Below, in pieces: positions 3,616-17,789 of a stretch of DNA of 35,904 bases (positions are counted from its first letter, which is position 1; every line of letters begins with the position of its first letter). The position numbers and the translations under genes are program-made. The DNA is from Nitrospiraceae bacterium (GTDB taxonomy: Bacteria > Nitrospirota > Nitrospiria > Nitrospirales > Nitrospiraceae). The notes under the pieces were generated by a model. The model was not told the DNA's origin, did not search any database, and was given only the letters and a program-made list of their open reading frames with translations. Location: contig CAKKRK010000126.1 of the NCBI GenBank assembly GCA_919902665.1, positions 1 through 35,904 on the forward strand. Reading direction: 5' to 3'.

Positions 3616-3885
3616 TTAGTTCAAGACCGCCGTCAATTGCGGCCTCGACTCTTCAGCACTCTTCGCTTGTGCCGATTTGCGGTCCAGCACTTCTTCCACC
3701 CCAGACTTGACGGCCCGACCCCATCGGCTGGTCTGCACCTGCGCCTTGCGGGCATACCGGCCGATGCTTCGACGAGCTTCCGCACCGGTCTGTGGAGCGA
3801 AGAGGAGCCCGAGTCCTGCTCCAATGACCGCCCCACCGGCAATGAATGCTGCTGCCTTGGCGACCTGATTCCCCTGCTCCGACAT
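3616..3885 (-). CDS. YtxH-domain small membrane-associated protein
   Basis: The 89-residue protein begins MSEQGNQ, with GAGGAGG six bases upstream of the ATG, which settles the start against longer options. Residues about 10-30 form a Gly/Ala-rich transmembrane helix ending LLFAPQTGAEARR, the hallmark of YtxH-like proteins. The rest is a basic amphipathic helix. Members of this family are often stress-associated, but their molecular function is unknown. The gene is alone and points away from lgt. A sigma-54-like element sits about 70 bases upstream. Confidence 0.8.
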   Translation of the reverse strand: MSEQGNQVAKAAAFIAGGAVIGAGLGLLFAPQTGAEARRSIGRYARKAQVQTSRWGRAVKSGVEEVLDRKSAQAKSAEESRPQLTAVLN

Positions 3886-5306: not shown

Positions 5307-5690
5307 TCAATACGGCATGTCGTCATCGTCGAGACCGACATGGTGGCCCAGTTCATGGACAACGGTATCACGCACTTCCTGCACCACTTCTTCAGGGCTC
5401 TCACACATGCGGAGGATTGGACCCCTGTAAATGGAAATTCGTGGCGGCTGCTCCCCTCCTGGCCCAAAGAACGAATCAGCCGCGAGTGACTGACCTTGGT
5501 ACAGTCCAAGCAAATCGTCTTCACTATCCAGCTCAAGATCTTCACGCACGTCTTGCGGCGGCTCTTCTTCTACAACCACAGCAATAGATTCCATGAGCGT
5601 AGCGTAGGGAAGAGGTAGGTCCGCGATCGCCTGCTGAACCAGCTTTTCAAAATCCTCAAATGAGACATGGTCACACCTGGCCATTTCCAT
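5307..5690 (-). CDS. Metallopeptidase family protein (Zincin_1-like, HExxH)
   Basis: The 127-residue protein ends with HELGHHVGLDDDDMPY, a zinc-binding HExxH at residues 112-116 followed by Gly and acidic residues, as in the minimal zincin family PF06262. Its acidic middle portion fits that family too. I chose the ATG at 5690, eleven bases after the addA stop, preceded by AGGGTAGGGA; longer forms would lie inside addA. Substrates of this family are not established. Its position as last gene of the addBA operon suggests cotranscription, though a link to DNA repair is only inferred. Confidence 0.85.
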   Translation of the reverse strand: MEMARCDHVSFEDFEKLVQQAIADLPLPYATLMESIAVVVEEEPPQDVREDLELDSEDDLLGLYQGQSLAADSFFGPGGEQPPRISIYRGPILRMCESPEEVVQEVRDTVVHELGHHVGLDDDDMPY

Positions 5691-5701
5691 TGTCCCTACC
5701 C

Positions 5702-8700
5702 TTACAATTCTACTGCCGTTGCACATCGAAGAAACAGACAGTGAAACCGAACTGAGTCGCACCCGAGGCTCTGCCTGATCGCAGACTTATAGACTTCACT
5801 CTGTGTTCTGTACTGCTCAGCCCGCACGGCTGCCTGATCGGCTGATATCGCATCCGTCTTATAGTCGGCGACCCACAGCTCTCCATCCAGCCGGTAGAGG
5901 AGGTCGATCACCCCTTCCATGACCTGCCTGTCACCCCACGGTATGACGAAAGGGATTTCTCGGCCAAGGATTTGGGACGACCGGAGACGTTCATAGGCTT
6001 CCGATCGACCGAACGTCGCAAGAAGATCGTTCACGGAATCAGTGATTGCTTCAGCATGAGGCTGGTCGTCCGGCCCAAGGGTTGCCTGTACGGTTAATCC
6101 TACCTGAGCACATAACCCAGAAGGGTGCTGTGAAAAGTCCCAACCCTCGAGTAAGCGATGCGCCACCACACCAGCTAATCGTCCAACCCCCACATCCTGT
6201 CGAGCCGGAGTCGTCTCACGCACAACCCGCGCAAATCGTTTACCCAGCGTTGTCGGCGTCAGATGATGGGGAGTCTCACAAACCTCTGTCCAGCGAGTCG
6301 TTCTGATCTTCCACCGTTCAGCAACCTCATATGGATCAATCACTACTGCACTCGCTGCTCTATCCGACCGTCGGCGTGGCCGCTTTCGTTCCGGTGCCTT
6401 GATCACTCGATGGGGAATCGCGCTGGCGCCGATCTTCAGAGCCTCCGTCGAGGCGGTTCCGATCTCCCCCGTCCCAATACTCTGCAGCAGGTCAAAGACC
6501 GTTTCACCGATTGAGCGGCCAGTGATCCCTCCTGACAACAACAACAACTCTTTGGCCCTCGTCATTCCCACATAGAGCACGCGTCGCCGTTCCGCTTCTT
6601 CTCGCAGCCGCAGTTTGTGCTGGACCAGCAACGAACCGAGAGACCGATGACGGTCGAGAGAGAGGCCATAGATGCCACTCGACCAATCATAGGAGACCTG
6701 TGGTACGCTTCGCTCCCGCCCACTCCCTTGGTGAAGGCCTGGCAGCACAACAATGGGGAATTCCAACCCCTTGGCCTTATGAATCGTTAACACGTGCACG
6801 GCTTCGAGCGACTCCTCGGCGAGAGGACTCTCCGATTCGTCCGGTTGTTCATCAAGGCGGGCAATCATAAGCTCCACAAATCCGCTCAAGGTCATGTGAG
6901 GTCGATCGGCCAATGACGCAGCCGTCTGTTTGACTTTCAGGAGGTTGGCCACTGCCTGTTCGCCATGGAGTGATGCAGCCGCCAGATCCAGGATCGGCAA
7001 TCGGTCAAACATCAGCGCGATGGCCTCAGCCAATGGCAGCATGGCAATAGCCCGGTGGAGCCATGCCAGATGTTCGTACAGCCGCTGAACAGCAGCCGCG
7101 CTGGCATGGGACCACGACCCGAGACTCACGGCCTGGAGATAATTGAAATACCCTGCCTGCTTGAGTTCATAGAGCTCCCGATCCGTCAGCCCCCCAAGTG
7201 GTGAGCGCAGGAGACCGGCTAACGCGATTTCGTCATGAGGATGATCTAAAACCCGCAGCAAATTCACGAGGTCAATCACCTCCTGACGACGATAGAAATG
7301 CTTTTCCCCCTCGATGACGTAGGGAATATCGTGCCGGCGCAAGGCATCGAGGTAGGTATCAGCCTGCGTCAGCTTCCTGAAGAGCAACGCGATGTGTCCC
7401 GGCTTCACGGAAGGGCGACTCAGAACCTCGTCGTTCAACCAACGAGCCAGCACTTCACTCTCGGCTCTCGTCGCCCCTGCTGCATCGAATGTCTCTGCTT
7501 CACCATCCGGTCTGGTCACGCTGAGACGAACGCCCGGTTCGATTGACGCCTGACGCCGTTGGGGTCGCACCTCCAATCGAACATTCGCTGGCTGAACCAG
7601 CGGCTGTCGTTCGAACAACCGATCGAAGACCTCATTCACCGGCTCTAACACGGCCACATCACTCCGGAAGTTTGTGGTCAACGTCTGGGCCACTCCACCG
7701 TCCACCGTGACCTTTTCTACGACGCGGTCGAAGGCTTCGATATCGGCTCGCCGAAAGGCATAGATCGACTGTTTGGGGTCTCCCACAATGAAGAGTTTCC
7801 CCGGTTCGAGCGTCATCTCATGCCAGTGAGCCGCCTGGCTCCCCTGCCGCTCCGAGACCGCAAGGATGATCTCGTACTGCACCGGGTCTGTGTCCTGAAA
7901 CTCATCGACCAACACAGCTCGATAGTCCCGTTTAATCCGTTCACGGATCAACGGATGATGAAGGAGTAGTGTCCGTGCCCGTGCCAGCAACCCATCAAAC
8001 GAAATCCAGCCCTGCCGAGCAAAGGTCTCACGAATGTTCCGCACGAGCGGTATGAGCAGAGTCACGAGATCGTTCAAGAACGCATGGTCGATCGCCAGGA
8101 GCTGTTGCGCCGCCTGGATGAGCGCGGCCGCCTCTTTGAAATCACCTTTCTCCCATCCCCCCACAGCGCTCCCGAGATCCTTGCTGAACCATTCTCGCTC
8201 TTCCATCGCCAGGCCTTGCCGGCCTGGTAACCCATTGTCTGCCATGAGGCGCATCAACGACGCCGTCGCGGCGAGCATCTGCTCAACCTTCCGGCGCTTT
8301 GGTCGATCGTATGTCTTCAAAAGTTGCTCCGCCCGGTCTCCCATATGTTGTATCCAACTCAAGACAACTGGTGGCACTGCTGTCGATGCGAGTTGTTGTT
8401 GCAGAGTACCGAGGTCGATCAATTCGCTGCACAAGGACCGGGCCAACGTTCTGACCGTGTCAAGAGTGGTCGATGACAAGACCGATCGCCAGAGGCGATG
8501 TTGTTGTCCAGCTCGGCTCAATTCCTGGTCGAGCCAGCAATCCCACGCTGCAGTGAATTGCTCTTCAAACCGTAAGCCGTCGTCTTCCTTGAAATCAGGA
8601 TCAACTCCGCTCTCTAGCGGGTGGAGTCGCAATAGGTGTCCGGCGAAACTATGAAGGGTGCCAATCTGGGCCTTTTCAAGATCGTTGAGTGCGCCCTGAG

Positions 8701-9052
8701 CACGCGTGGCAATTGCATCAGTGCTGAGTCCATAGCGATCTCGCAGATCTTCCCGCGAGACAGCCCCTCCGTCACCTGCTCGCACCGGGTCAGCCTCTGG
8801 GCGAGCCAGCACAACGAGTCGCTCGCGCAGTCGGACTTTCATTTCGGTCGCAGCCTTGTTGGTGAAGGTTAAGGCGATGACCTGCGTGATCAAGACCGGA
8901 GCGGGTTCCTTCATCAGCAGATACACGAGGCGATTCACGAGCAACGTCGTCTTGCCTGTCCCGGCCCCGGCCACAACAACGACATTGCGATCGAATGTCG
9001 TCTCGGCCAACTCGCGCGCCATACGATCCGGTATCAGAAGATCGTTACTCAT
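5702..9052 (-). CDS. addA: AddA-type UvrD/RecB helicase-nuclease subunit
   Basis: A protein of 1116 residues if started at the ATG at 9052, which overlaps the addB stop region (a TTG at 9058 is the alternative). Superfamily 1A helicase motifs appear in order: Walker A VAGAGTGKT (about 27-35), VDEFQDTDP (about 382-390), GDPKQSIYAFR (about 424-434), TTNFRS, TIHKAKGLEFP and VLYVGMTRAKE. A RecB-family nuclease domain closes the protein with GVIDLLYR and VADYKTD, the D and D-x-K catalytic residues. With AddB it would unwind and degrade double-strand ends and load RecA. The length and domain order match AddA rather than plain UvrD. Confidence 0.93.
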   Translation of the reverse strand: MSNDLLIPDRMARELAETTFDRNVVVVAGAGTGKTTLLVNRLVYLLMKEPAPVLITQVIALTFTNKAATEMKVRLRERLVVLARPEADPVRAGDGGAVSREDLRDRYGLSTDAIATRAQGALNDLEKAQIGTLHSFAGHLLRLHPLESGVDPDFKEDDGLRFEEQFTAAWDCWLDQELSRAGQQHRLWRSVLSSTTLDTVRTLARSLCSELIDLGTLQQQLASTAVPPVVLSWIQHMGDRAEQLLKTYDRPKRRKVEQMLAATASLMRLMADNGLPGRQGLAMEEREWFSKDLGSAVGGWEKGDFKEAAALIQAAQQLLAIDHAFLNDLVTLLIPLVRNIRETFARQGWISFDGLLARARTLLLHHPLIRERIKRDYRAVLVDEFQDTDPVQYEIILAVSERQGSQAAHWHEMTLEPGKLFIVGDPKQSIYAFRRADIEAFDRVVEKVTVDGGVAQTLTTNFRSDVAVLEPVNEVFDRLFERQPLVQPANVRLEVRPQRRQASIEPGVRLSVTRPDGEAETFDAAGATRAESEVLARWLNDEVLSRPSVKPGHIALLFRKLTQADTYLDALRRHDIPYVIEGEKHFYRRQEVIDLVNLLRVLDHPHDEIALAGLLRSPLGGLTDRELYELKQAGYFNYLQAVSLGSWSHASAAAVQRLYEHLAWLHRAIAMLPLAEAIALMFDRLPILDLAAASLHGEQAVANLLKVKQTAASLADRPHMTLSGFVELMIARLDEQPDESESPLAEESLEAVHVLTIHKAKGLEFPIVVLPGLHQGSGRERSVPQVSYDWSSGIYGLSLDRHRSLGSLLVQHKLRLREEAERRRVLYVGMTRAKELLLLSGGITGRSIGETVFDLLQSIGTGEIGTASTEALKIGASAIPHRVIKAPERKRPRRRSDRAASAVVIDPYEVAERWKIRTTRWTEVCETPHHLTPTTLGKRFARVVRETTPARQDVGVGRLAGVVAHRLLEGWDFSQHPSGLCAQVGLTVQATLGPDDQPHAEAITDSVNDLLATFGRSEAYERLRSSQILGREIPFVIPWGDRQVMEGVIDLLYRLDGELWVADYKTDAISADQAAVRAEQYRTQSEVYKSAIRQSLGCDSVRFHCLFLRCATAVEL

Positions 9053-12000
9053 CGGCAATTTTCTGTGTACGAAGCATCTTCAACGTTTTCGGCTCGTCCG
9101 CACGATAAGCCCTCCACCACGTCGGCGCATGCTCTCGCCGACAAGCCACACGAAAGTCACAACTATCGCAATAGCCGTCTGGAAGAATGAAAAAGCGTCC
9201 GGTACGGATGCCATCCACGAGCATTCTCAGTGTGTTCTGGATCAGTACCCCGGTATCGGAGGACCACGACATCGTCTCAAAGCTTGAACGGCTGATCGCC
9301 GGTGACCACTGAGGAGCGAGAAACAGGAACTGCACCTGGCTCGGAGTAGGCTGACCAGGAACAGTGAGACCGCTATAGAGCGGTGGCTGCAGCCGATACC
9401 CACGGACCGCCGACTGGGCCAAGTTCCGGTCTTCCGGTTTCATCGCTGCGCCGACTTTGAACTTGTAATCGACTACGCGCATCGTGCCGGAGGACCGGTT
9501 CTGATCGAGACGATCAATGCGACCACGGATCTTCAACAATCCCTCGTCGAGGACACCGGGAATCGTCCCCTCACCGTCCACTTCAAATGCAATAGGCTGG
9601 TACGGATGCTCGGCCTGTTCCTCCTCGTCCGCCTTCACTGCCGCGATCACCAGCGCCACGATCTGTTCTTTGGCCAACTCCCACAGTAGATAGTGGCCTG
9701 CTCGATGTTGTGACTCCAGATCTGCCGCCGCCTGTTCCACCGACTGACGGATCTTCTGGTCCATCATGTCGTCCGCTACTTGTCGAGTTGGCCACCCAAC
9801 CTGCACGAGCTGTTCATAGCAATAACGCAATGCTGCGTGGCAGAGCGTCCCAACCAGCGCCGCATCTGGCTCCTGCGACATCGCAACCCGGCTCGGCTCG
9901 AGTCGCAACACATCTGCAGAAAAATATTGGAACGGACAGCGTGCATACCGTTCGAGCGGCGTCGGAGCGAGACCCCGTTCGATGAGCCGCACCCAATGAG
10001 ATTCCACCGCCCCCGTTATCCCATCGAAGAGATTGAGCGCCGCGCCGTCTTCTTCGATTCGATCGAGCGCCATCGCTGCATGGTGGAACGTCTCCGCATC
10101 ACGCCCGAACGCCCGTACCAGATCGGTCGGGTCTTGCCCGTTCATGGCCAACCACTGAGTCAGTTCTTCCGGCGGCAGGAATCGTGTAATCGTTGGCTGT
10201 TGTGAGACTCGATCAGTCAGACGACGAGGCACCACATCAATCGGCGGCTCATTCTGGCCGAACCAACGGCGCGCGTCGCCGAGAGACGGAGAGGCGGCCA
10301 GCATGCGGCCAGATTCATCGGCCCGTTGATAAGATAAGTAGAGTCGCTGAGTGGCAGTCTGACAACAGAGGCGGAAGAGCAACGTCTCTTCTCCATAGGC
10401 CGTCAGTTTCTCATCGATCTTAAATCCAAGCGTGGCGTCGAGCACACGCCGATGACGATCACGCAGAAACGCATCTTCGCGAATATAGCGCGGAAACACT
10501 TTTTCGTTCAGCCCGAGGACAAACAGGACTTTGAACGGCACTCCGCGGGCAGCCATCACGTCGTATACCATCACGCCCTGAGATGAACCATCGTGGAGAG
10601 GGATCGTCGTGCGCTCGAAGGTATGGGTCAATAGTTCAACAAATTCGGCCCAGGTCATCTCCTCGTTGAGCGGCTCCAACTCCATGAGCGTCGTCCAGAT
10701 ACGATCGATCACATCCCATGTCATCGCGTGGCGAGCAAGTGGACGATCGTCGGTGTCGGTGGTTGATACGGCTGCATCTGGCCGACGCAGGTGCCGCTCA
10801 ATGAGTGCTCGACAGGCTGTGACCATCTGACCGATCGTGCCTCGCGATGGCAGGGCCAAACAGGCTTGTACGAGCTGTGAGACCACCTGCCAACACAGGC
10901 CGATCACCTCCGGCGCAATGGCCAGCGAATCAACAAGGCTCTCCTCATCATCAATCACCACTGCAGCTTGGCTCACCTGTTCCAACCGTGTCCACGCCTC
11001 AACCCCGCGCGTAATGTGCAGCGCTTGGACGAGCATCTTCCACTGTTCTGGCCGATACGACGCCGACAGCTCATCATATACATCGGTGACATAGAGCGGA
11101 GACGTCACGACATCGAGAACAGACGTGCGATAGAAATCGTTCAACGGCAGGGAGGCTACCTGCAACACGAGCTTGCAGATCGGTTCCTGAATCAACGGCC
11201 TTGATGCCGTCGTACGAAAGGGAATCCGATGGCGATCGAAACTCGACTGAAGATAGAGGCTATAGGGATCGAGCGTCCGGGCGATGACACCGATTTCATC
11301 GAATCGATACCCGTTAGTTTCGATCAGATCGAGAATGGTTCGGCAGGTTGCTGCCAATTCTTCTTCCGCGCCAATTACGCTCCGTATGGTGAGTTGGGCG
11401 TGATCGTGCGCCACCGTTGAGGATTCCTGTTCCAGCCCGATCGGCGCATCGTCCGACATCACCAGCGACTGGATATGGCGATCAAAAAAGCGCCGAGCAA
11501 ACCCAAACGCCGGGTCATCCTCCAGCGGAAAAAACAAGGTCGTGTCCTTCGCACGGCTGATCGCTTCAAAGAGGGACAGCTGTACCTGCGTCAGGTCATA
11601 GAACCCATAGTAGAACACGGCCTTCAACGGCTGGAGAAACGTAGCGGTCGGAATGAGCGGGATGAGGGCCTCGGCCAGATCGTCTTGTGTCCCAACCCCG
11701 AGGGTCCTGCCCGCTTCCTTCACGGCTGCATAGAGTGACAGGAGCGCGCCGAGCCACTCACGATCGTCATCCTCGAAATAGCCTTCACGGAGACCTTGCA
11801 GCGCTTGCGCAGCATCGACCGTGGCATCCTTCAAGTCGCGAATGGTCGCCCAGAGTGCGCCCCAGGTCCCAGAGGATTGTCCGATTCGTTGCAACGGAGC
11901 CTGGCTGGTGAGCTTACTGTGAACAATGTGACGAACGAGTTGTTCAAAGAACAGCTCGTCAACGACCCGCGGCAGTGGGTAGTTGACCTGTACGTCCCCA

Positions 12001-12221
12001 GCCAGCCGTAGGGCCAATTGGTGGAAGGTTAAGATATGTACGTTGAAGAGCGACAGCCGGTGTTCGACGGCGAAAATGGTGCGAAGGCGATCGGCGAGTG
12101 GCTTGGACGGAACAAAGATCGCGATCGGCGCAAGCGGATCAGGCGCCTTGACACGTGTGAGTCGATGGACGAGAGCAGATTCAAGAGTAGGATGAAAGCG
12201 ACCCGTGACGACCTGCAACAT
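9045..12221 (-). CDS. addB: AddB-type nuclease subunit, PD-(D/E)XK with Fe-S cysteines
   Basis: This 1058-residue partner of AddA has a degenerate helicase-like N-terminus without a clean Walker A. The C-terminal nuclease shows GRIDRLDQ and MRVVDYKFK, the PD-(D/E)XK acidic and lysine residues. Four cysteines frame the nuclease: one in RYARCPFQYF (about residue 760) and three in YCDSCDFRVAC near the C-terminus. That is the arrangement that holds the 4Fe-4S cluster of AddB. The gene overlaps addA by 8 bases, implying translational coupling. The start is an ATG 16 bases after the zinc-ribbon gene stop, with a weak ribosome-binding site. Confidence 0.92.
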   Translation of the reverse strand: MLQVVTGRFHPTLESALVHRLTRVKAPDPLAPIAIFVPSKPLADRLRTIFAVEHRLSLFNVHILTFHQLALRLAGDVQVNYPLPRVVDELFFEQLVRHIVHSKLTSQAPLQRIGQSSGTWGALWATIRDLKDATVDAAQALQGLREGYFEDDDREWLGALLSLYAAVKEAGRTLGVGTQDDLAEALIPLIPTATFLQPLKAVFYYGFYDLTQVQLSLFEAISRAKDTTLFFPLEDDPAFGFARRFFDRHIQSLVMSDDAPIGLEQESSTVAHDHAQLTIRSVIGAEEELAATCRTILDLIETNGYRFDEIGVIARTLDPYSLYLQSSFDRHRIPFRTTASRPLIQEPICKLVLQVASLPLNDFYRTSVLDVVTSPLYVTDVYDELSASYRPEQWKMLVQALHITRGVEAWTRLEQVSQAAVVIDDEESLVDSLAIAPEVIGLCWQVVSQLVQACLALPSRGTIGQMVTACRALIERHLRRPDAAVSTTDTDDRPLARHAMTWDVIDRIWTTLMELEPLNEEMTWAEFVELLTHTFERTTIPLHDGSSQGVMVYDVMAARGVPFKVLFVLGLNEKVFPRYIREDAFLRDRHRRVLDATLGFKIDEKLTAYGEETLLFRLCCQTATQRLYLSYQRADESGRMLAASPSLGDARRWFGQNEPPIDVVPRRLTDRVSQQPTITRFLPPEELTQWLAMNGQDPTDLVRAFGRDAETFHHAAMALDRIEEDGAALNLFDGITGAVESHWVRLIERGLAPTPLERYARCPFQYFSADVLRLEPSRVAMSQEPDAALVGTLCHAALRYCYEQLVQVGWPTRQVADDMMDQKIRQSVEQAAADLESQHRAGHYLLWELAKEQIVALVIAAVKADEEEQAEHPYQPIAFEVDGEGTIPGVLDEGLLKIRGRIDRLDQNRSSGTMRVVDYKFKVGAAMKPEDRNLAQSAVRGYRLQPPLYSGLTVPGQPTPSQVQFLFLAPQWSPAISRSSFETMSWSSDTGVLIQNTLRMLVDGIRTGRFFILPDGYCDSCDFRVACRREHAPTWWRAYRADEPKTLKMLRTQKIADE

Positions 12222-12237
12222 GGCGAGTCATTGTACG

Positions 12238-12393
12238 CTACCCGGTCTCCGGTCCCAAGAGCTCGCCGTTGCAGTCAACGCAGGCCCAGTCGCCGTCAAT
12301 AAACGACATTGGATCGGCGCAGATCGGACAATCCGGTGGAGGCCCCTTGGATATGAGTGGAAGATCCGGGAGCTCGTTCTCGTATTCGTCCAT
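12238..12393 (-). CDS. 51-residue zinc-ribbon protein
   Basis: A short open frame encodes a protein with paired CPIC and CVDC motifs separated by 14 residues (CxxC...CxxC), which looks like a complete zinc ribbon, after an acidic and proline-rich N-terminus. The ATG at 12393 follows GGGAG. The stop falls 16 bases before addB, and the start lies six bases beyond the stop of the upstream thioredoxin-like gene, so it is packed into the same operon. I do not recognise a named family. The paired cysteines, tight packing and ribosome-binding site argue that it is real. Confidence 0.7.
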   Translation of the reverse strand: MDEYENELPDLPLISKGPPPDCPICADPMSFIDGDWACVDCNGELLGPETG

Positions 12394-12399
12394 GGCTCC

Positions 12400-12666
12400 C
12401 TACCCTTCTCGCTGTTTGATCTTCAACTGAATGGCCTTCTCCGCGCTTTCTCGACTCGGAACACCGACGAACGTCAGGCGCCCATCGATGATCGTCGCCG
12501 GCACGGCACGAACAGAATGACGGTCGGCCAGCTCCTGGCCGTCTTTCGTGGTGATATCCACTTCACGATAGGAGAAGCTGTACTTCACGCGCAACTGCTT
12601 CCACAGACTTTTAGCCGATGGACAGGCTCCACAACTGGGCGACACGAGTAATGTAATGTTTGGCAT
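12400..12666 (-). CDS. Thioredoxin/glutaredoxin-like protein
   Basis: The 88-residue protein has the thioredoxin fold signature: a beta strand ITLLVSPSCGACPSAKSL with redox motif C12-G-A-C15-P, a second strand YREVDI, and the cis-proline segment AVPATIIDG. Its size and CxxCP spacing match small thioredoxin-fold disulfide proteins like archaeal MJ0307-type glutaredoxins. It is the first gene of the operon that continues with the zinc ribbon and addB/addA. Whether it reduces the Fe-S or zinc partner proteins encoded downstream is speculation. The product has no signal peptide and is cytosolic. Confidence 0.85.
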   Translation of the reverse strand: MPNITLLVSPSCGACPSAKSLWKQLRVKYSFSYREVDITTKDGQELADRHSVRAVPATIIDGRLTFVGVPSRESAEKAIQLKIKQREG

Positions 12667-12706
12667 GATGTTTCTGAAACAGGTACGAAATGATTCTGTT
12701 GATCGG

Positions 12707-12736
12707 ATCTTAGCACCCGCTGAAAAGACGGCGCAA
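12707..12736 (-). promoter_or_regulatory. Probable promoter of the trx-zinc ribbon-addBA operon
   Basis: On the minus strand TTGCGC (12736-12731) and TAAGAT (12712-12707) are 18 bases apart. The start codon of the thioredoxin-like gene lies about 40 bases downstream at 12666. Both boxes deviate from consensus, so this is a moderate prediction. Confidence 0.4.
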
Positions 12737-12816
12737 GGACGGGACCAGGAGCAGCGTCAATCGCCGAGTCACATCATAATACGTATTCACTGTGGAAAGA
12801 TTGAGGAAACAGGCGT

Positions 12817-13890
12817 ATGATACGTATATCACCCATGGTCAACCGCTTCTCGTATACGCTCCCGTGGCTGGCCGCCATCCTACTGCTCTGCAGTCCCGTA
12901 ACGCACGCTCAAGAAGGCCGAGGAGATTCGCCTCCACTGCGAGTCTTGACCTACAACCTGCTGCACGATGGAGCATGGTCAGGATTCTTCGAGAGCGGCA
13001 CCCATCTCGAGGAGCGACTCGACATAACCATTCAAGAACTGAAGCGTTTGCAACCTGACATCATCGCACTTCAAGAAGCGTCAGACAGCCGAAAGCATGG
13101 CAACGTGCCGCAACGAATCGCTGAGGCACTCGGGTACCAGATGGTGTTCGCTCCTGCGACCGAACATATCTTCGGCATCGGTTTTGTGGATCGGCTAATC
13201 ACCTCAGCCATCGGCTTCAAAGAAGGACCGGCCATCCTGAGCCGCTATCCTATCGTCGGCTCGGAAGTCTATGATTTACCTCGGTGCCCACGTCGCATGG
13301 ACCCACGCATTCTCTTGCGAGCCGAGATTAAGGCTCCCGATGGGCCGACCCAGGTCTTTTCCGCCCACACGTCGAAAGGCGACGAATGCCAACTCCAACG
13401 AGTTGGCGAACTGTTCCGTGAACATCGAGGAACAGGGCGAGCCTTTTTGATGGGCGACTTGAATACCGGAGAGCAATCTCCAGTCCTCACCGAATGGCAG
13501 AAAGAGCCGGGATTCATCGACGCCTTCCGGGTCGCGAATCCGGGAGTACCCGGAGGAACGGTCTGGCAAAATATCCAAGTCGAATGGCCCACTGCCGATC
13601 GCCGTGTCGATTTCATTTTCCTGTTTGATGGAAGTACCAATGGAAGCTCGGTCGTGCGTTCAAGCCGTCTAGCATTTGACCAACCCGGTCGGCTCCCGAA
13701 CGGCGACGCCCTCTGGCCCTCAGACCATCGCGGCGTCTTTGCCGAAATCGGAACCGCTCCTTCTGGAAACGGTCCGACCGAAGTGGCCATCGAAAAGTCG
13801 CCCGTGTCTCCCGTGAACCGCGTCCGTCAATCGATTCGACGCGGGCCTAATCTCGTTAATCCCTTATCAAGGATCAACTATAAGAAATAA
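12817..13890 (+). CDS. Secreted endonuclease/exonuclease/phosphatase-family protein
   Basis: The 357-residue protein has a signal peptide (about residues 10-31, ending THAQ) and then a complete EEP fold. Visible active-site motifs are YNLL with N47, ALQEA with E87, SAHTSKG with H184, MGDLNTG with D214 and N216, and a final SDHRGV with D303 and H304. The family hydrolyses phosphodiester bonds in nucleic acids, sphingolipids or phosphoinositides under Mg2+. Export suggests extracellular nucleic acid or phospholipid use, but the substrate cannot be read from sequence. The start at 12817 follows GAGGA; an ATG at 12835 is an alternative. Confidence 0.88.
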   Translation: MIRISPMVNRFSYTLPWLAAILLLCSPVTHAQEGRGDSPPLRVLTYNLLHDGAWSGFFESGTHLEERLDITIQELKRLQPDIIALQEASDSRKHGNVPQRIAEALGYQMVFAPATEHIFGIGFVDRLITSAIGFKEGPAILSRYPIVGSEVYDLPRCPRRMDPRILLRAEIKAPDGPTQVFSAHTSKGDECQLQRVGELFREHRGTGRAFLMGDLNTGEQSPVLTEWQKEPGFIDAFRVANPGVPGGTVWQNIQVEWPTADRRVDFIFLFDGSTNGSSVVRSSRLAFDQPGRLPNGDALWPSDHRGVFAEIGTAPSGNGPTEVAIEKSPVSPVNRVRQSIRRGPNLVNPLSRINYKK

Positions 13891-14343
13891 GTGTGTCATT
13901 GAAGTCGGTATCTCATCCTGTCTTGTCATGCCGTTGTCGTTTGTTGCAGCGCGACCTCAACACCCAGCCTCTCCTGACCACATCCGACAGTCGTGCGCTC
14001 ATGCTCTGTAACAACCAGCCACGAACAAAAGCCTGATCGATGAGTGTTGCCCATCTGGTCGTGATTCTCCTTCAGATCTCTCCCTTTCACATCTCGCACA
14101 TTGAGCAGACAGTCGCTGGTTTGACTTCCTGGGCAGGAAGGATCAGCATGCCTCATTCCATATAGACAAAGAGGTGTTCTGTGACTCCCTGCTAGATCTC
14201 GTTAACGCCCTCATAAGACCCCGTTCCAGAACAACCCCACGCCCTCCTGGTTCCCATCACCACGAGGGCATTCTTGTGTCTACATCTCTACCCTGCGTCG
14301 ATAAGAAGCCCAATCATTTTATCTGTCTTGGAAGGAGACCGCG
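13891..14343. other. Intergenic stretch with one imperfect hairpin
   Basis: No convincing gene is seen. A 76-codon minus-strand frame at 13926-14156 lacks family features and a ribosome-binding site. An imperfect inverted repeat at 14243-14271 (GCCCTC then TGGT, seven-base loop, ACCA then GAGGGC, with one internal mismatch) could form a stable hairpin, but no T-tract follows. It could be a leader structure for the small gene at 14344 rather than a terminator. Confidence 0.4.
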
Positions 14344-14568
14344 ATGAAACGCTTAGCCACACTCATAGCCGGACTGATTTTTGGGTCACCAGCCCTCGCG
14401 TTGGCGGCAGAACATAGTGCCAGCTATCGAGGGATTGGGTTGATCTACTTCGTCTTCATCGGTGGCATCCTCATCTATGGGGTAAATGATGCCTTCGGGA
14501 AAAAGGCCATGTATGTGGCAACCCCATTTATTCTCGGATGGTGTTATTGGATGCTGCCGCCGAACTGA
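14344..14568 (+). CDS. Small membrane protein with signal-like N-terminus, unknown
   Basis: The 74-residue protein has a hydrophobic N-terminus ending ALALAAEH, then two hydrophobic stretches (IGLIYFVFIGGILIYG and a C-terminal one around ATPFILGWCYWM). It would be either a two- or three-helix inner membrane protein or a cleaved precursor. A strong GGAAGGAGA ribosome-binding site precedes the ATG, and a hairpin terminator follows, so it forms a complete monocistronic unit. I do not recognise a family. Confidence 0.75.
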   Translation: MKRLATLIAGLIFGSPALALAAEHSASYRGIGLIYFVFIGGILIYGVNDAFGKKAMYVATPFILGWCYWMLPPN

Positions 14569-14592
14569 GCCGAGGAACAAAATAGACTGAAG

Positions 14593-14628
14593 CACCACGG
14601 TCTAACGGCCGTGGTGTCTGTTGTTTCG
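14593..14628 (+). terminator. Rho-independent terminator after the small membrane gene
   Basis: An eight-base perfect stem CACCACGG (14593-14600) pairs with CCGTGGTG (14609-14616) across an eight-base loop and is followed by a T-rich run TCTGTTGTTT. It starts 24 bases after the stop codon of the gene ending at 14568. Confidence 0.75.
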
Positions 14629-14685
14629 TACTCATTACTCTCCGCTCCACTCCCACCCCTACAGATCTCATTGTGACAAGCCACA

Positions 14686-14714
14686 TTGACACTGGTTCAA
14701 GAGTTGATGACAAT
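14686..14714 (+). promoter_or_regulatory. Probable promoter for the DUF3817 gene
   Basis: TTGACA at 14686-14691, a perfect -35 box, is followed after 17 bases by GACAAT at 14709-14714, a weaker -10. The start codon at 14768 is about 50 bases further. Confidence 0.45.
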
Positions 14715-14767
14715 GCCACAGGCTAGCCACATCGCAACAGGTTCCTTAGGCTAGAAATTCAACACAG

Positions 14768-15085
14768 ATGAGTCAAATTCGAAGATATAGAATGACCGCC
14801 TTGGCCGAGGGGAGTTCTTTTCTTCTGCTGCTATTCGTAGCAATGCCGATGAAGTATCTGATGGGGATGCCGAGGGTAGTAACCGTCGTGGGAGCGATTC
14901 ACGGAATCTTGTTCTTGGCCTATGTCGCCCAGTTGGTTACGCTCCGGACTACACATCAATGGGATAACCGCTTCTCCTTCTATGCCTTTCTGGCCTCCCT
15001 TCTCCCCTTTGGGCCATTCATCTTCGACAAACACCTGCGCGAGAAAGAAACTGCCACGGAAAAGCCTTATCGTTTGCCATCGTAG
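14768..15085 (+). CDS. DUF3817 integral membrane protein
   Basis: The 105-residue protein has three transmembrane segments and the family pattern: AEGSSFLLLLFVAMPMKY at the first helix, then VGAIHGILFLAYV, and a final LPFGPFIFDKHL. DUF3817 proteins are common in bacteria and often called YdzA-like; their function is unknown. The last 19 bases overlap the end of the convergent helicase gene on the other strand, so the two transcripts face each other without a visible terminator between them. Confidence 0.88.
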   Translation: MSQIRRYRMTALAEGSSFLLLLFVAMPMKYLMGMPRVVTVVGAIHGILFLAYVAQLVTLRTTHQWDNRFSFYAFLASLLPFGPFIFDKHLREKETATEKPYRLPS

Positions 15086-16626
15086 CCCCGCTCCTTCCAC
15101 CGCTCTAATAGTTGAATCCGTTTCTTGAGCTGCTCGACTGTCGCCTGATCGACGCGGCTCCCGGTGCGGGCAATCAATTCTGCGTTGAGTCTTCGATGAT
15201 CGATCCCACTTGTTCGCGCAAGACTGGTGACCAACAATCGGTGGAGATCTCGCAGATCTTCCTTCTGTTGGTGGAGAGATACGGCTGGTTCGGCAATGAT
15301 AGCCGCATCGCCCTCCCCTTTCGCCTCGTCTTCGCCGATCAGGCTATCCATCCTGGCGACGGCCATCAGCGGCATGTATTCGTTCGTCGAAACCGTCACA
15401 CGGCCGAAGAGGTCTCGTTGCCCGGCCGGCATGATGTCTTCCAAGACATGATCGCGCTCCGCCTTGATCTGCTTGGCGTAGTGCACCAGGACCGGATCTT
15501 TCGGCAAGTACAGCCAGGCCCGCTGCGGTTTGGGCAGGCCTTCCTGCATCCGCACGAACCGGCCGACCACCTGCCGGAAATACATTTCCGTGATCACGTT
15601 CGTCCCATAGACGCCGACACGGAGCCGAGGAATATCTACGCCTTCGCTCACCATGTTGACGGCCACCAGCCACTGATGCTTTTTGTGACCAGCGAATTCC
15701 TCAATGGTGCGCGAGGCAGCAGGATCGTCTGAGACGGCTACTTCAGCCTTTGTCCCAGTGATACGGGCGACCAGGTCGGCCACCCAGCGCGCATGGTCCT
15801 GATCCATGCAGACGATCAATCCGCCGGCATCCGGTTGCTCCTCCTTCCGAAGACGTGTCAGTTGCGCATGGGCGTCGGTGATCACTGGCCCAAGCCACGT
15901 GTCTTGCAGAAGCGCCGTCTTCAACCGTTCCCGCTGGCGGTTGAACTTCAGCCCGTCTTCAAACGTGGCATGATGCTCGCGGCCTTCCGACAGCCAACTC
16001 AGCTCGCCTTCGTAGCTCGGAAAGACAATAGGTCGGCAGACGCTATCCCGAATCGCGTCGGTGTACCCATACGCGAAATTCGCCCGGCTTTCTCCTTGTT
16101 CATATTGAATAAACGGGATTGGATTGTTGTCCGAGCGAAAGGGCGTACCGGACAGAATCAGTCGGAACACCGCCGGCTCGAACGCCGAGCGCAGCGCCTT
16201 CCCCCAGTTCTTCCCATCGCCGGCGTGATGCAACTCGTCAAAGATGAGCAGCGTCTTCTTGCTCTGGCAGACCCGCTGGAAGATCTCCGGTGCCAGACAG
16301 ACTTGCTGATAGGTCACCACCGCGCCGTGATAGTCCGGCGCCTCAGCAGCTTGTTCGTTGGTCAGCGCCGGATCAAGCTGCAACCCGATCTTCCCCGCCG
16401 CATCCGACCATTGTGTGCGGAGGTGATTCGTCGGGCAGACGACCAGCACCCGGACCGCAGCCTGTTTCGCCAAATATTCATGCACCACGCGCAAGGCAAA
16501 ACGTGTCTTGCCCGCAGCAGGAGTCGCCATCGCCAGAAAATCTTTGGTCTGATGGGTACGGACTGCCGAGAGCGCACGGCCCTGCCAATCGCGAAGTGGC
16601 GCAGTCCAAGCAGGCAAGGTCTTCAT
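15067..16626 (-). CDS. SF2 DEAD/DEAH-box helicase, third gene of the topoisomerase VI cluster
   Basis: The 519-residue protein (starting MKTLPAWTAPLRDWQ at 16626) has superfamily 2 helicase motifs: a Q-like aromatic lead, Walker A ATPAAGKT (about 34-41), DELHH (about 130-134), SGTPFRSD (about 159-166), then motif V VNMVSEGVDIPRL and motif VI QVVGRFVR. This is the RecG/UvsW/XPB-like type that translocates on double-stranded DNA. The C-terminal 100 residues are helical and basic, without a recognised domain. A frame extension to 16839 would overlap top6A and is unlikely. The gene begins 59 bases after top6A. Confidence 0.85.
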   Translation of the reverse strand: MKTLPAWTAPLRDWQGRALSAVRTHQTKDFLAMATPAAGKTRFALRVVHEYLAKQAAVRVLVVCPTNHLRTQWSDAAGKIGLQLDPALTNEQAAEAPDYHGAVVTYQQVCLAPEIFQRVCQSKKTLLIFDELHHAGDGKNWGKALRSAFEPAVFRLILSGTPFRSDNNPIPFIQYEQGESRANFAYGYTDAIRDSVCRPIVFPSYEGELSWLSEGREHHATFEDGLKFNRQRERLKTALLQDTWLGPVITDAHAQLTRLRKEEQPDAGGLIVCMDQDHARWVADLVARITGTKAEVAVSDDPAASRTIEEFAGHKKHQWLVAVNMVSEGVDIPRLRVGVYGTNVITEMYFRQVVGRFVRMQEGLPKPQRAWLYLPKDPVLVHYAKQIKAERDHVLEDIMPAGQRDLFGRVTVSTNEYMPLMAVARMDSLIGEDEAKGEGDAAIIAEPAVSLHQQKEDLRDLHRLLVTSLARTSGIDHRRLNAELIARTGSRVDQATVEQLKKRIQLLERWKERGYDGKR

Positions 16627-16685
16627 AGCCGATTCATGCAAGCGGACTGTTGGTGGCTGAGTGATGGCACAGAGTAGGAGGCCAG

Positions 16686-17789
16686 TTAGTCCAGCCAGTC
16701 TTTTTCCTTGAGCTTCCTCGGCAGATATTTCTTCGTCAGGTATTGAAAATCCTTGTTGGCCAGCGCGTCGAGTTCGTACTTCAGCCCACTCGCGAGCATG
16801 CGCTTGATCTCCACCTGCCACGCTGGCTTTTGGAACCACTGATAGTTTAACAATTCCTTAGCACGTGCGATATCCTTCTCATTCAGTTTGATTCCGACAT
16901 TGCGCGGCAGTTCGTAGCGCTCCGGATCAGCACTCGACAGGCCCACGAACTTGGCCTTGGGAATGGCCATCCGTTCACTCTCGAAGGCCAAATTGATCGA
17001 GCCCTGTTTGACGACGGAATAGATGTAGTACCCCCAGGGATCGTTATCGACCAGCACATAGACCGGCAGCCGATGTTCCTCGTGCAGCCGACAGGCTAAC
17101 CGCCGCACACCCCGAGGAGGCTGACCGTTTCCAGTCAGGAGAATACAGTTATAGCGTCGCCAGAACTTGTCCTCCGAGAGCCGGTTCCACTGGGTTCCCT
17201 TTTCGACAAGCAGCACGAAATCTGCCGTACATCGCCGGATCTCCAAATACTCCGGTTCAACAATCGATGGGACCGAGTACCCGCCTTTCCCTAGCTTCGA
17301 GCAATCGACACGATCGCCGTCATCGCCGAAGACCACCGGCCCCACGATACTGCCTCTGTTTTCTGCACTGACATGGAGCTCTTCTCGAAGCGTCGCGAGG
17401 GACACCTCTAGATCTTCAATGACCGGATCGGATTCGTCCTGTGCATCGAAGGTATTCTCATGAGAATCTTTGATCGTGTGTTTGGTGCGGTAGTAGATCT
17501 CTCGAAGCGAGGTGGTGAGATCAGCGCGCTGCAACTCGGAGAGGGCATCGGCCACCAGCATCGTCTGCATGAACCTCTTCGCCATACCGACGTTAAAAAA
17601 CGACCGCTCCTGCTTTTTGCTTCCCATCTCGATGAGGCCCTTCTTTTCATTGAAGAACACATTCGAGAGTGCACGGATGGGGATTTGAAACGTCGGATCT
17701 TTCGCCCGATCAGCTGCATGAATCACAATGTCCGCCAGGCTGATCAGTTTTTTCTCAACCACAGTGGTTTTCTTTGTCTTGGCCGTCAT
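16686..17789 (-). CDS. top6A: DNA topoisomerase VI subunit A
   Basis: This 367-residue protein is the Spo11-like catalytic subunit of a type IIB topoisomerase. The winged-helix CAP domain carries SLREIYYRTKHT, with the Y99-Y100 pair; the second aligns with the catalytic tyrosine of Spo11 relatives. The Toprim domain shows VEKGTQW (E196), a GQPPRGVRRL segment and VLVDNDPWG (D248, D250), the metal-binding acidic residues. All key residues are present, so cleavage activity is expected. The ATG lies six bases after the top6B stop with AGGA between, giving coupled translation. Length and motifs match archaeal enzymes rather than the Wadjet JetD relatives. Confidence 0.94.
   Translation of the reverse strand: MTAKTKKTTVVEKKLISLADIVIHAADRAKDPTFQIPIRALSNVFFNEKKGLIEMGSKKQERSFFNVGMAKRFMQTMLVADALSELQRADLTTSLREIYYRTKHTIKDSHENTFDAQDESDPVIEDLEVSLATLREELHVSAENRGSIVGPVVFGDDGDRVDCSKLGKGGYSVPSIVEPEYLEIRRCTADFVLLVEKGTQWNRLSEDKFWRRYNCILLTGNGQPPRGVRRLACRLHEEHRLPVYVLVDNDPWGYYIYSVVKQGSINLAFESERMAIPKAKFVGLSSADPERYELPRNVGIKLNEKDIARAKELLNYQWFQKPAWQVEIKRMLASGLKYELDALANKDFQYLTKKYLPRKLKEKDWLD

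Follow-up and report, generated by a model that had tools for sequence, protein, structure and literature searches.

A thioredoxin-like and zinc-ribbon gene pair adjoining addB and addA in the Nitrospirales

Introduction

Thioredoxin genes are situated close to addAB in two Rhizobiales. In Brucella, trx-1 is found two genes after addA at the end of the bvrR/bvrS operon and on the same strand (addB-addA-x-trx-1), and PMC9491525 shows co-transcription of this 16-gene operon by RT-PCR. In Shinella (one record, L278), trxA directly follows addA to give the order addB-addA-trxA, and its protein is a member of TIGR01068. A small zinc-ribbon protein with redox properties has also been described. Ruc (Rv0991c) displays zinc binding and disulfide switching, and Ruc homologs are listed for 86.3% of 73 Nitrospirae genomes (PMC7448276).

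The locus analyzed here is in a 35,904 nucleotide stretch of DNA from a Nitrospiraceae bacterium (assembly GCA_919902665.1, contig CAKKRK010000126.1), which is termed the window. It is similar to the Brucella and Shinella loci in that a thioredoxin gene is near addAB on the same strand. However in those organisms the thioredoxin gene comes after addA, whereas in the window a Thioredoxin_3-type gene comes before addB, with a zinc-ribbon gene between them. The ribbon is like Ruc in being a small Cys4 zinc ribbon with an unstructured tail. However, according to PMC7448276, the tail of Ruc is C-terminal, variable and about 7–61 residues long, whereas the window ribbon has a short acidic N-terminus and a fixed C-terminus. 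Ruc may serve as a model for the ribbon by analogy only. No description of a thioredoxin-ribbon-addBA operon was found in the limited AddAB and thioredoxin literature searched, which includes passages of PMC4824097, PMC8514734, PMC7448276 and PMC9491525.

Organization of the locus

Open reading frame and profile calls show five genes on the minus strand, which encode a thioredoxin-like protein (Trx), a zinc ribbon, AddB, AddA and a zincin-like metallopeptidase (Table 1). From the coordinates, 6 bp separate the Trx and ribbon genes and 16 bp separate the ribbon gene from addB; addB and addA overlap by 8–14 bp, the addA start codon being TTG at 9058 or ATG at 9052. The full GTG open reading frame of the zincin gene (5762–5307) overlaps addA by 61 bp. 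Judging from the translation, the true start is probably the in-frame ATG at position 5690, which is 11 bp past addA. With this start, gaps and overlaps of less than 20 bases hold across the whole unit, as the initial annotation had described.

Table 1. Positions of features in the window and of flavodoxin-type genes found before addB in family f20
Feature	Position	Strand	Evidence or remarks
Putative core promoter	12707..12736	(-)	TTGCGC (-35-like) and extended -10 TGCTAAGAT; ends 40 nt before Trx start codon
Trx-like protein, 88 aa, CGAC site	12400..12666	(-)	PF13192, dN/dS
Small Cys4 zinc ribbon, 51 aa	12238..12393	(-)	CPxC...CxxC, invariant Cys, dN/dS
addB, 1058 aa, helicase-nuclease subunit	9045..12221	(-)	PDDEXK_1, E 6.8e-30, 105.2 bits
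addA, helicase-nuclease subunit	5702..9058	(-)	UvrD-helicase, E 3.6e-49, 168.3 bits
Zincin-like metallopeptidase, HELGH	5307..5762	(-)	PF06262 Zincin_1, 102.7 bits
Flavodoxin-type gene, L279	1530-2117		Pfam FMN_red, Flavodoxin_1
Flavodoxin-type gene, L280	3820-4440		Pfam FMN_red, Flavodoxin_1
Flavodoxin-type gene, L281	8440-9012	minus	Pfam FMN_red, Flavodoxin_1
Flavodoxin-type gene, L282	3631-4218		Pfam FMN_red, Flavodoxin_1
Flavodoxin-type gene, L283	1803-2381		Pfam FMN_red, Flavodoxin_1

The AddB sequence has the C-terminal PD-(D/E)XK nuclease domain (PF12705, 105.2 bits against a cutoff of 22). The profile TIGR02773 (addB_Gpos) is matched with an E-value of 9.5e-35 and 119.5 bits, which is below its equivalog cutoff of 903.7, and the sequence is also below the cutoffs of TIGR02786 and TIGR02774. 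It is therefore classed as AddB-type and not as a member of these NCBIfam equivalogs. AddAB is said, in a passage of a review that cites Yeeles 2009, to hold a 4Fe-4S cluster. The window AddB has cysteines of the cluster type on both sides of the nuclease domain, at C762, C1018, C1021 and C1027 (a single C, then CxxCx5C), which are invariant in 20 out of 20 aligned sequences. A 4Fe-4S cluster in this protein is putative.

AddA displays matches, each below cutoff, to TIGR02785 (E 6.3e-81) and to TIGR00609 (E 4.5e-81). In all 79 testable loci of the window's family, addA follows addB on the same strand. A zincin gene is found in 56 of 79, on the same strand and 6–8.5 kb away from where addB starts, and thus appears to be a looser member of the unit.

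The two small genes

The thioredoxin-like protein has the active site SCGACPS. It belongs to Thioredoxin_3 (PF13192, 43.2 bits, cutoff 24.8), a profile that is matched at E 0.001 by all 34 aligned members. Both active-site cysteines are invariant in the 34 sequences, and the first residue between them varies. The nearest solved sequences are PDB 1fo5 and 1nho, which are named thioredoxin and probable thioredoxin; these small thioredoxins are similar in length to the window protein and also have the CxxC near the N-terminus. It differs from MJ0307-type thioredoxins however, as it scores 46.1 bits with TIGR00411, below the equivalog cutoff of 92.75, and is not placed in that family. The predicted model is of low confidence (pLDDT 62); its structural neighbours are thioredoxins, with a best E-value of 1.2e-3. 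The dN/dS ratio is 0–0.024 in 13 of 13 comparisons with hand-picked relatives.

The ribbon sequence of 51 aa consists of an acidic N-terminus, an ELPxLP motif, the two cysteine pairs CPIC...CVDC and a GPETG end. The four cysteines of the two CxxC pairs and the C-terminal glycine are invariant in 36 out of 36 aligned ribbons. The dN/dS ratio is 0–0.101 in 12 of 13 hand-picked relatives; in the thirteenth (L115) dS is saturated and gives no meaningful ratio. The window ribbon has no Pfam family at cutoff (the best is PF21302, 14.5 bits versus 27), no NCBIfam match, and no match to TIGR02605 (FmdB) or Zn_ribbon_8 at E-values up to 1. Other ribbon members show weak matches to many ribbon families, with a best E-value of 2.8e-4. 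The broadest is DZR_2, found in 33 of 36, and FmdB and Zn_ribbon_8 are weakly matched by two and one, respectively, of the 36 aligned members. The predicted model has a pLDDT of 74. Neither this model nor that of Trx finds a PDB match with an E-value of 0.001 or less, thus neither model serves as strong evidence.

Origin of the two genes as chance or spurious small open reading frames is ruled out by the dN/dS values together with the conserved length and cysteines. For the same reasons both small genes are real, and the expectation that the ribbon would prove to be a genuine gene with conserved cysteines is borne out. The ribbon is a gene under strong constraint that has no curated family at cutoff. 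The protein is predicted to bind zinc.

The ribbon C-terminus is exactly GPETG in the window (12238–12255, minus strand), and all 36 aligned sequences likewise terminate in Gly. Most other ribbons also end in GPETG; GPNIG, GPEIG or GPEVG is found in f21-like sequences (families are given here by number) and GPVTG in f8. The C-terminus itself may be functional.

Linkage to addB in the Nitrospirales

AddB is present in 94 of 98 genomes of the family, and 96 loci were taken from 93 of these in addition to the window. A locus was considered testable when the addB 5′ end was matched and at least 800 bp of upstream sequence was present; 89 of the 96 qualify and seven were dropped. Trx and ribbon genes are directly upstream on the addB strand in 88 of the 89. 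The sole exception is L128, where a ribbon but no Trx was detected. The pair is also kept beside addB in f3 and f2 loci, with a larger spacing in some of the latter, approximately 0.4 kb in G126 and 2 kb in G129.

Searches with the ribbon give a similar picture. Among the best 80 of 171 matches (named loci), 61 show Trx, ribbon and addB in order, two have the pair with another AddAB, in two the pair is located at the end of a contig, and 15 have neither neighbour; among these 15, one is short of upstream and one of downstream sequence. Of the same best 80, 78 carry Nitrospirota titles. The order Trx-ribbon-addB is also found in L228 (titled Nitrospinota) and L240 (titled Nitrosospira), whose titles may be mislabelled. 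The linkage is thus order-wide, and the proposals of a lineage-specific conserved unit and of an association beyond chance both hold.

Genome G105 contains Trx, ribbon and AddB twice, on contigs C70 and C157, which represents either duplication or assembly redundancy.

Only 13 of 83 family loci contain the gene that lies upstream of Trx in the window, and the conserved block therefore begins sharply at trx. On the other hand, 67 of 72 testable family loci have lgt at a distance of up to 11 kb, on one strand or the other. Gene order is therefore stable in general in this region, and linkage alone is no proof of function. Median identities to the window in the family loci are 88% for Trx, 76% for the ribbon, 73% for lgt, 51% for AddA and 45% for AddB. 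The high values for Trx and ribbon versus that for AddB seem unlike the tight co-evolution of an interface.

Promoter motif and transcription

In 81 of 90 sequences the motif TGNTAAGAT is present at 200 nt or less before Trx, and in 69 of these 81 it is at 30–50 nt. The background is 85 of 13,410 windows drawn from these same loci (true sites included) and 2 of 3,960 windows in 20 stretches of genome G063. A looser form, TGNTANNNT, is found at 35–53 nt in all 17 further hand-picked named loci, with a background of 130 of 3,960 windows; the exact form is found in one of these 17. The motif is conserved at the head of the pair, and the looser form is absent from all 89 Trx-ribbon gaps and present in two of 90 ribbon-AddB gaps, one motif having been scored in the gaps.

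A generic scan of positions 12100–13000 shows two promoter-like sites (0.4 +/- 0.6 in shuffles) and two terminator-like sites (0.8 +/- 1.0 in shuffles); the trx promoter candidate at 12736–12707 is not among the sites listed. One of the two promoter-like sites, a weak match (9 of 12) at 12258–12230 on the minus strand, overlaps the ribbon end just before addB, thus addB could have its own start. However the near absence of the trx-type motif from the ribbon-AddB gaps argues against an internal addB promoter of that type. A single transcript of trx, ribbon and addBA is putative.

The ribbon-addB gap in the window is just 16 nt. Longer ribbon-addB gaps in other genera (e.g. L040, L050, L072, L090) display imperfect stem-loops of unrelated sequence. 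Of 76 such gaps, 35 have z-values below -2 and 21 below -3, with a median of -1.6 (60 shuffles each). Such structures could separate addAB expression from that of the pair.

Occurrence in other families and replacement of addAB

A sample of 275 Nitrospirota genomes was analyzed with E-value thresholds of 0.01 for the ribbon, 1e-6 for Trx and 1e-60 for AddB; families f2 and f4 are outside of this sample. Trx and ribbon occur throughout the 89 genomes of f1 and f3, and window-type AddB occurs in 88 of them. The exception is G320, where canonical AddB is absent from the whole genome. Window-type AddB is found in 101 of the 275 genomes, and 13 of the 101 are without Trx. Four of these 13 (f7) and eight (f20) have neither small protein; the remaining genome, G240 (f5), has an unlinked ribbon and no Trx. 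A direct scan beside addB in five f20 loci, three f7 loci and the G240 locus detected no Trx and no ribbon. The expectation that the small genes stay beside addB in other Nitrospirota thus holds within the Nitrospirales and fails outside of this order.

The converse is also found. The ribbon is present without window-type AddB in 25 of 275 genomes (19 in f21, three in f9, one in f8, a weak match at E 3.8e-4 in f10, and G320). Genomes with a Trx-profile match and no AddB of this type comprise 20 from f21, two from f30 (weak) and G320. In the 18 f21 genomes that have both proteins, Trx and ribbon are unlinked. In f4 the ribbon is found without Trx, and AddB is matched weakly (E 2e-12 to 4e-12).

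Several f21 genomes contain two divergent ribbon copies that are unlinked to Trx, e.g. G171 on contigs C22 and C17. Neighbours of the ribbon gene differ by family: an M48 peptidase in f9, a BCCT transporter in f4, Competence-domain or amidase proteins in f21, MgsA and prephenate dehydratase in f8, and a DnaJ domain protein in f5. A fixed partner other than AddAB was looked for among the scanned representative ribbon loci outside Nitrospirales, and none is shared.

Several Nitrospirales loci display a different AddAB next to the same pair. In two genomes of the window's genus, G046 and G067, AddB is 43%–44% and AddA 50%–51% identical to the window sequences. Their AddB sequences are 63%–67% identical to each other and to that of G040, and their AddAB are closest to each other, then to G040 or genus g9. 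Trx in both is 97%–100% identical to that of the window, and lgt is of the genus type in G046 and less clearly so in G067. By comparison of loci L059 and L061 with L094–L101, addAB has apparently been exchanged in place, with Trx, and in L059 also lgt, of the genus type. In L223 and L268 the Trx-ribbon pair is followed by a different AddAB in convergent orientation (at 3730–8098 in L223, where it replaces the window type), and here the promoter motif before trx is retained despite the replaced addAB. L268 appears to come from G320, and in L180, also from G320, the different convergent AddAB (10427–16829) is between the Trx-ribbon pair and lgt. As the pair is kept when addAB changes, the redox head outlasts its addAB. 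The pair is thus independent of any one AddB. The replacing AddB in L180 retains CPF and CxxCx5C, and since the cysteine motif is still carried next door, the idea of a dedicated helper keeps some room.

The reverse arrangement, i.e. the same addBA type with a different head, is found in f20. An FMN/flavodoxin-type gene, which we take to be WrbA-like, is directly before addB in five of six f20 loci with upstream sequence (Table 1), and the gap to addB ranges from an overlap to approximately 230 nt. L279–L283 are positive and L288, with 687 bp upstream, is negative; L289 and L290 begin inside addB and are not counted. Here, as in the window, a small redox-type gene is directly upstream of the same addBA type. 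However the gene is of the FMN/flavodoxin type, without Trx or ribbon. Families f7 and f5 do not show a redox gene in this place; the gene before addB encodes a DUF4864 protein or an acyltransferase in two f7 loci. Redox genes of different kinds near addAB in three lineages may point to a wider theme.

Discussion

The reading that we favor, at about an even chance of being correct, is that Trx and ribbon constitute an independent, conserved thiol/zinc module in promoter-proximal position, with addAB as an exchangeable cargo. The module would be old and conserved on its own account. In the Nitrospirales it would occupy the promoter-proximal end of one transcription unit, with the distal addB and addA co-expressed and exchangeable, and the extended -10 promoter before trx would drive trx, ribbon and addBA jointly. 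The CGAC protein, reduced by the cellular thioredoxin reductase system, would resolve disulfides in the Cys4 zinc site of the ribbon and would also act on other cytosolic clients. If the ribbon is a substrate of Trx in this manner, it would act as a redox-sensitive adaptor loaded with zinc, of a kind comparable to Ruc. The same promoter would also govern AddAB production, and AddB would perhaps be one client among several.

A simpler explanation is that the gene order has been inherited without functional meaning, two small housekeeping genes having come to lie upstream of addAB in an order that was never broken. The persistence of lgt, which has no obvious link to the other genes, within 11 kb of most loci is in keeping with this, as is the finding that the pair stays put when addAB is replaced in inverted orientation. 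However the genes are very closely spaced in the window and its near relatives, the promoter motif is conserved at trx and almost absent from the gaps, and other redox-type neighbours of addAB occur elsewhere, all of which make an accidental order somewhat unlikely. The initial annotation had proposed instead that the pair is a helper dedicated to AddB, with Trx keeping the 4Fe-4S ligands reduced and the ribbon protecting, loading or sensing the cluster. The near-perfect linkage in the Nitrospirales, the invariant AddB cysteines together with the motifs kept by the replacing AddB of L180, and the redox-type genes beside addAB in f20 and two Rhizobiales speak for such a role. Nevertheless twelve genomes of f7 and f20 have window-type AddB with neither protein, and in G240 this AddB is accompanied by an unlinked ribbon alone. 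Conversely, 25 genomes have a ribbon but no window-type AddB. Sequence conservation of the pair far exceeds that of AddB, and exchange of addAB is apparently tolerated. A dedicated role of this type is not upheld and is considered unlikely.

The interpretation of the pair as an independent module may understate its relation to AddAB. The near-universal linkage in the Nitrospirales together with the redox neighbours in f20 and the Rhizobiales suggests a tie to AddAB that is closer than plain co-transcription. The differing neighbours of the ribbon outside this order and its separation from Trx in f21 also weigh against the module. By a bolder extension, which we regard as speculative and improbable, AddAB-type helicase-nucleases would be redox-controlled by a co-transcribed redox module that differs by lineage. 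The Nitrospirales would use Trx and ribbon, another Nitrospirota family would use a flavodoxin-type protein, and the Rhizobiales would use thioredoxin. Such a module would determine whether the AddB 4Fe-4S cluster, or its ligands, are oxidized or reduced, and the ribbon would be a sensor that is reset by the Trx-like protein. If this were true, DNA-end processing would follow the thiol status of the cell.

The ribbon represents a small protein family, strongly constrained and without a curated family at cutoff, that is tied to a promoter motif and to DNA-end repair. Nature has provided swaps in both directions, the same redox head with different addAB and the same addAB type with a different head. 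These natural swaps make redox regulation of Fe-S helicase-nucleases a testable question.
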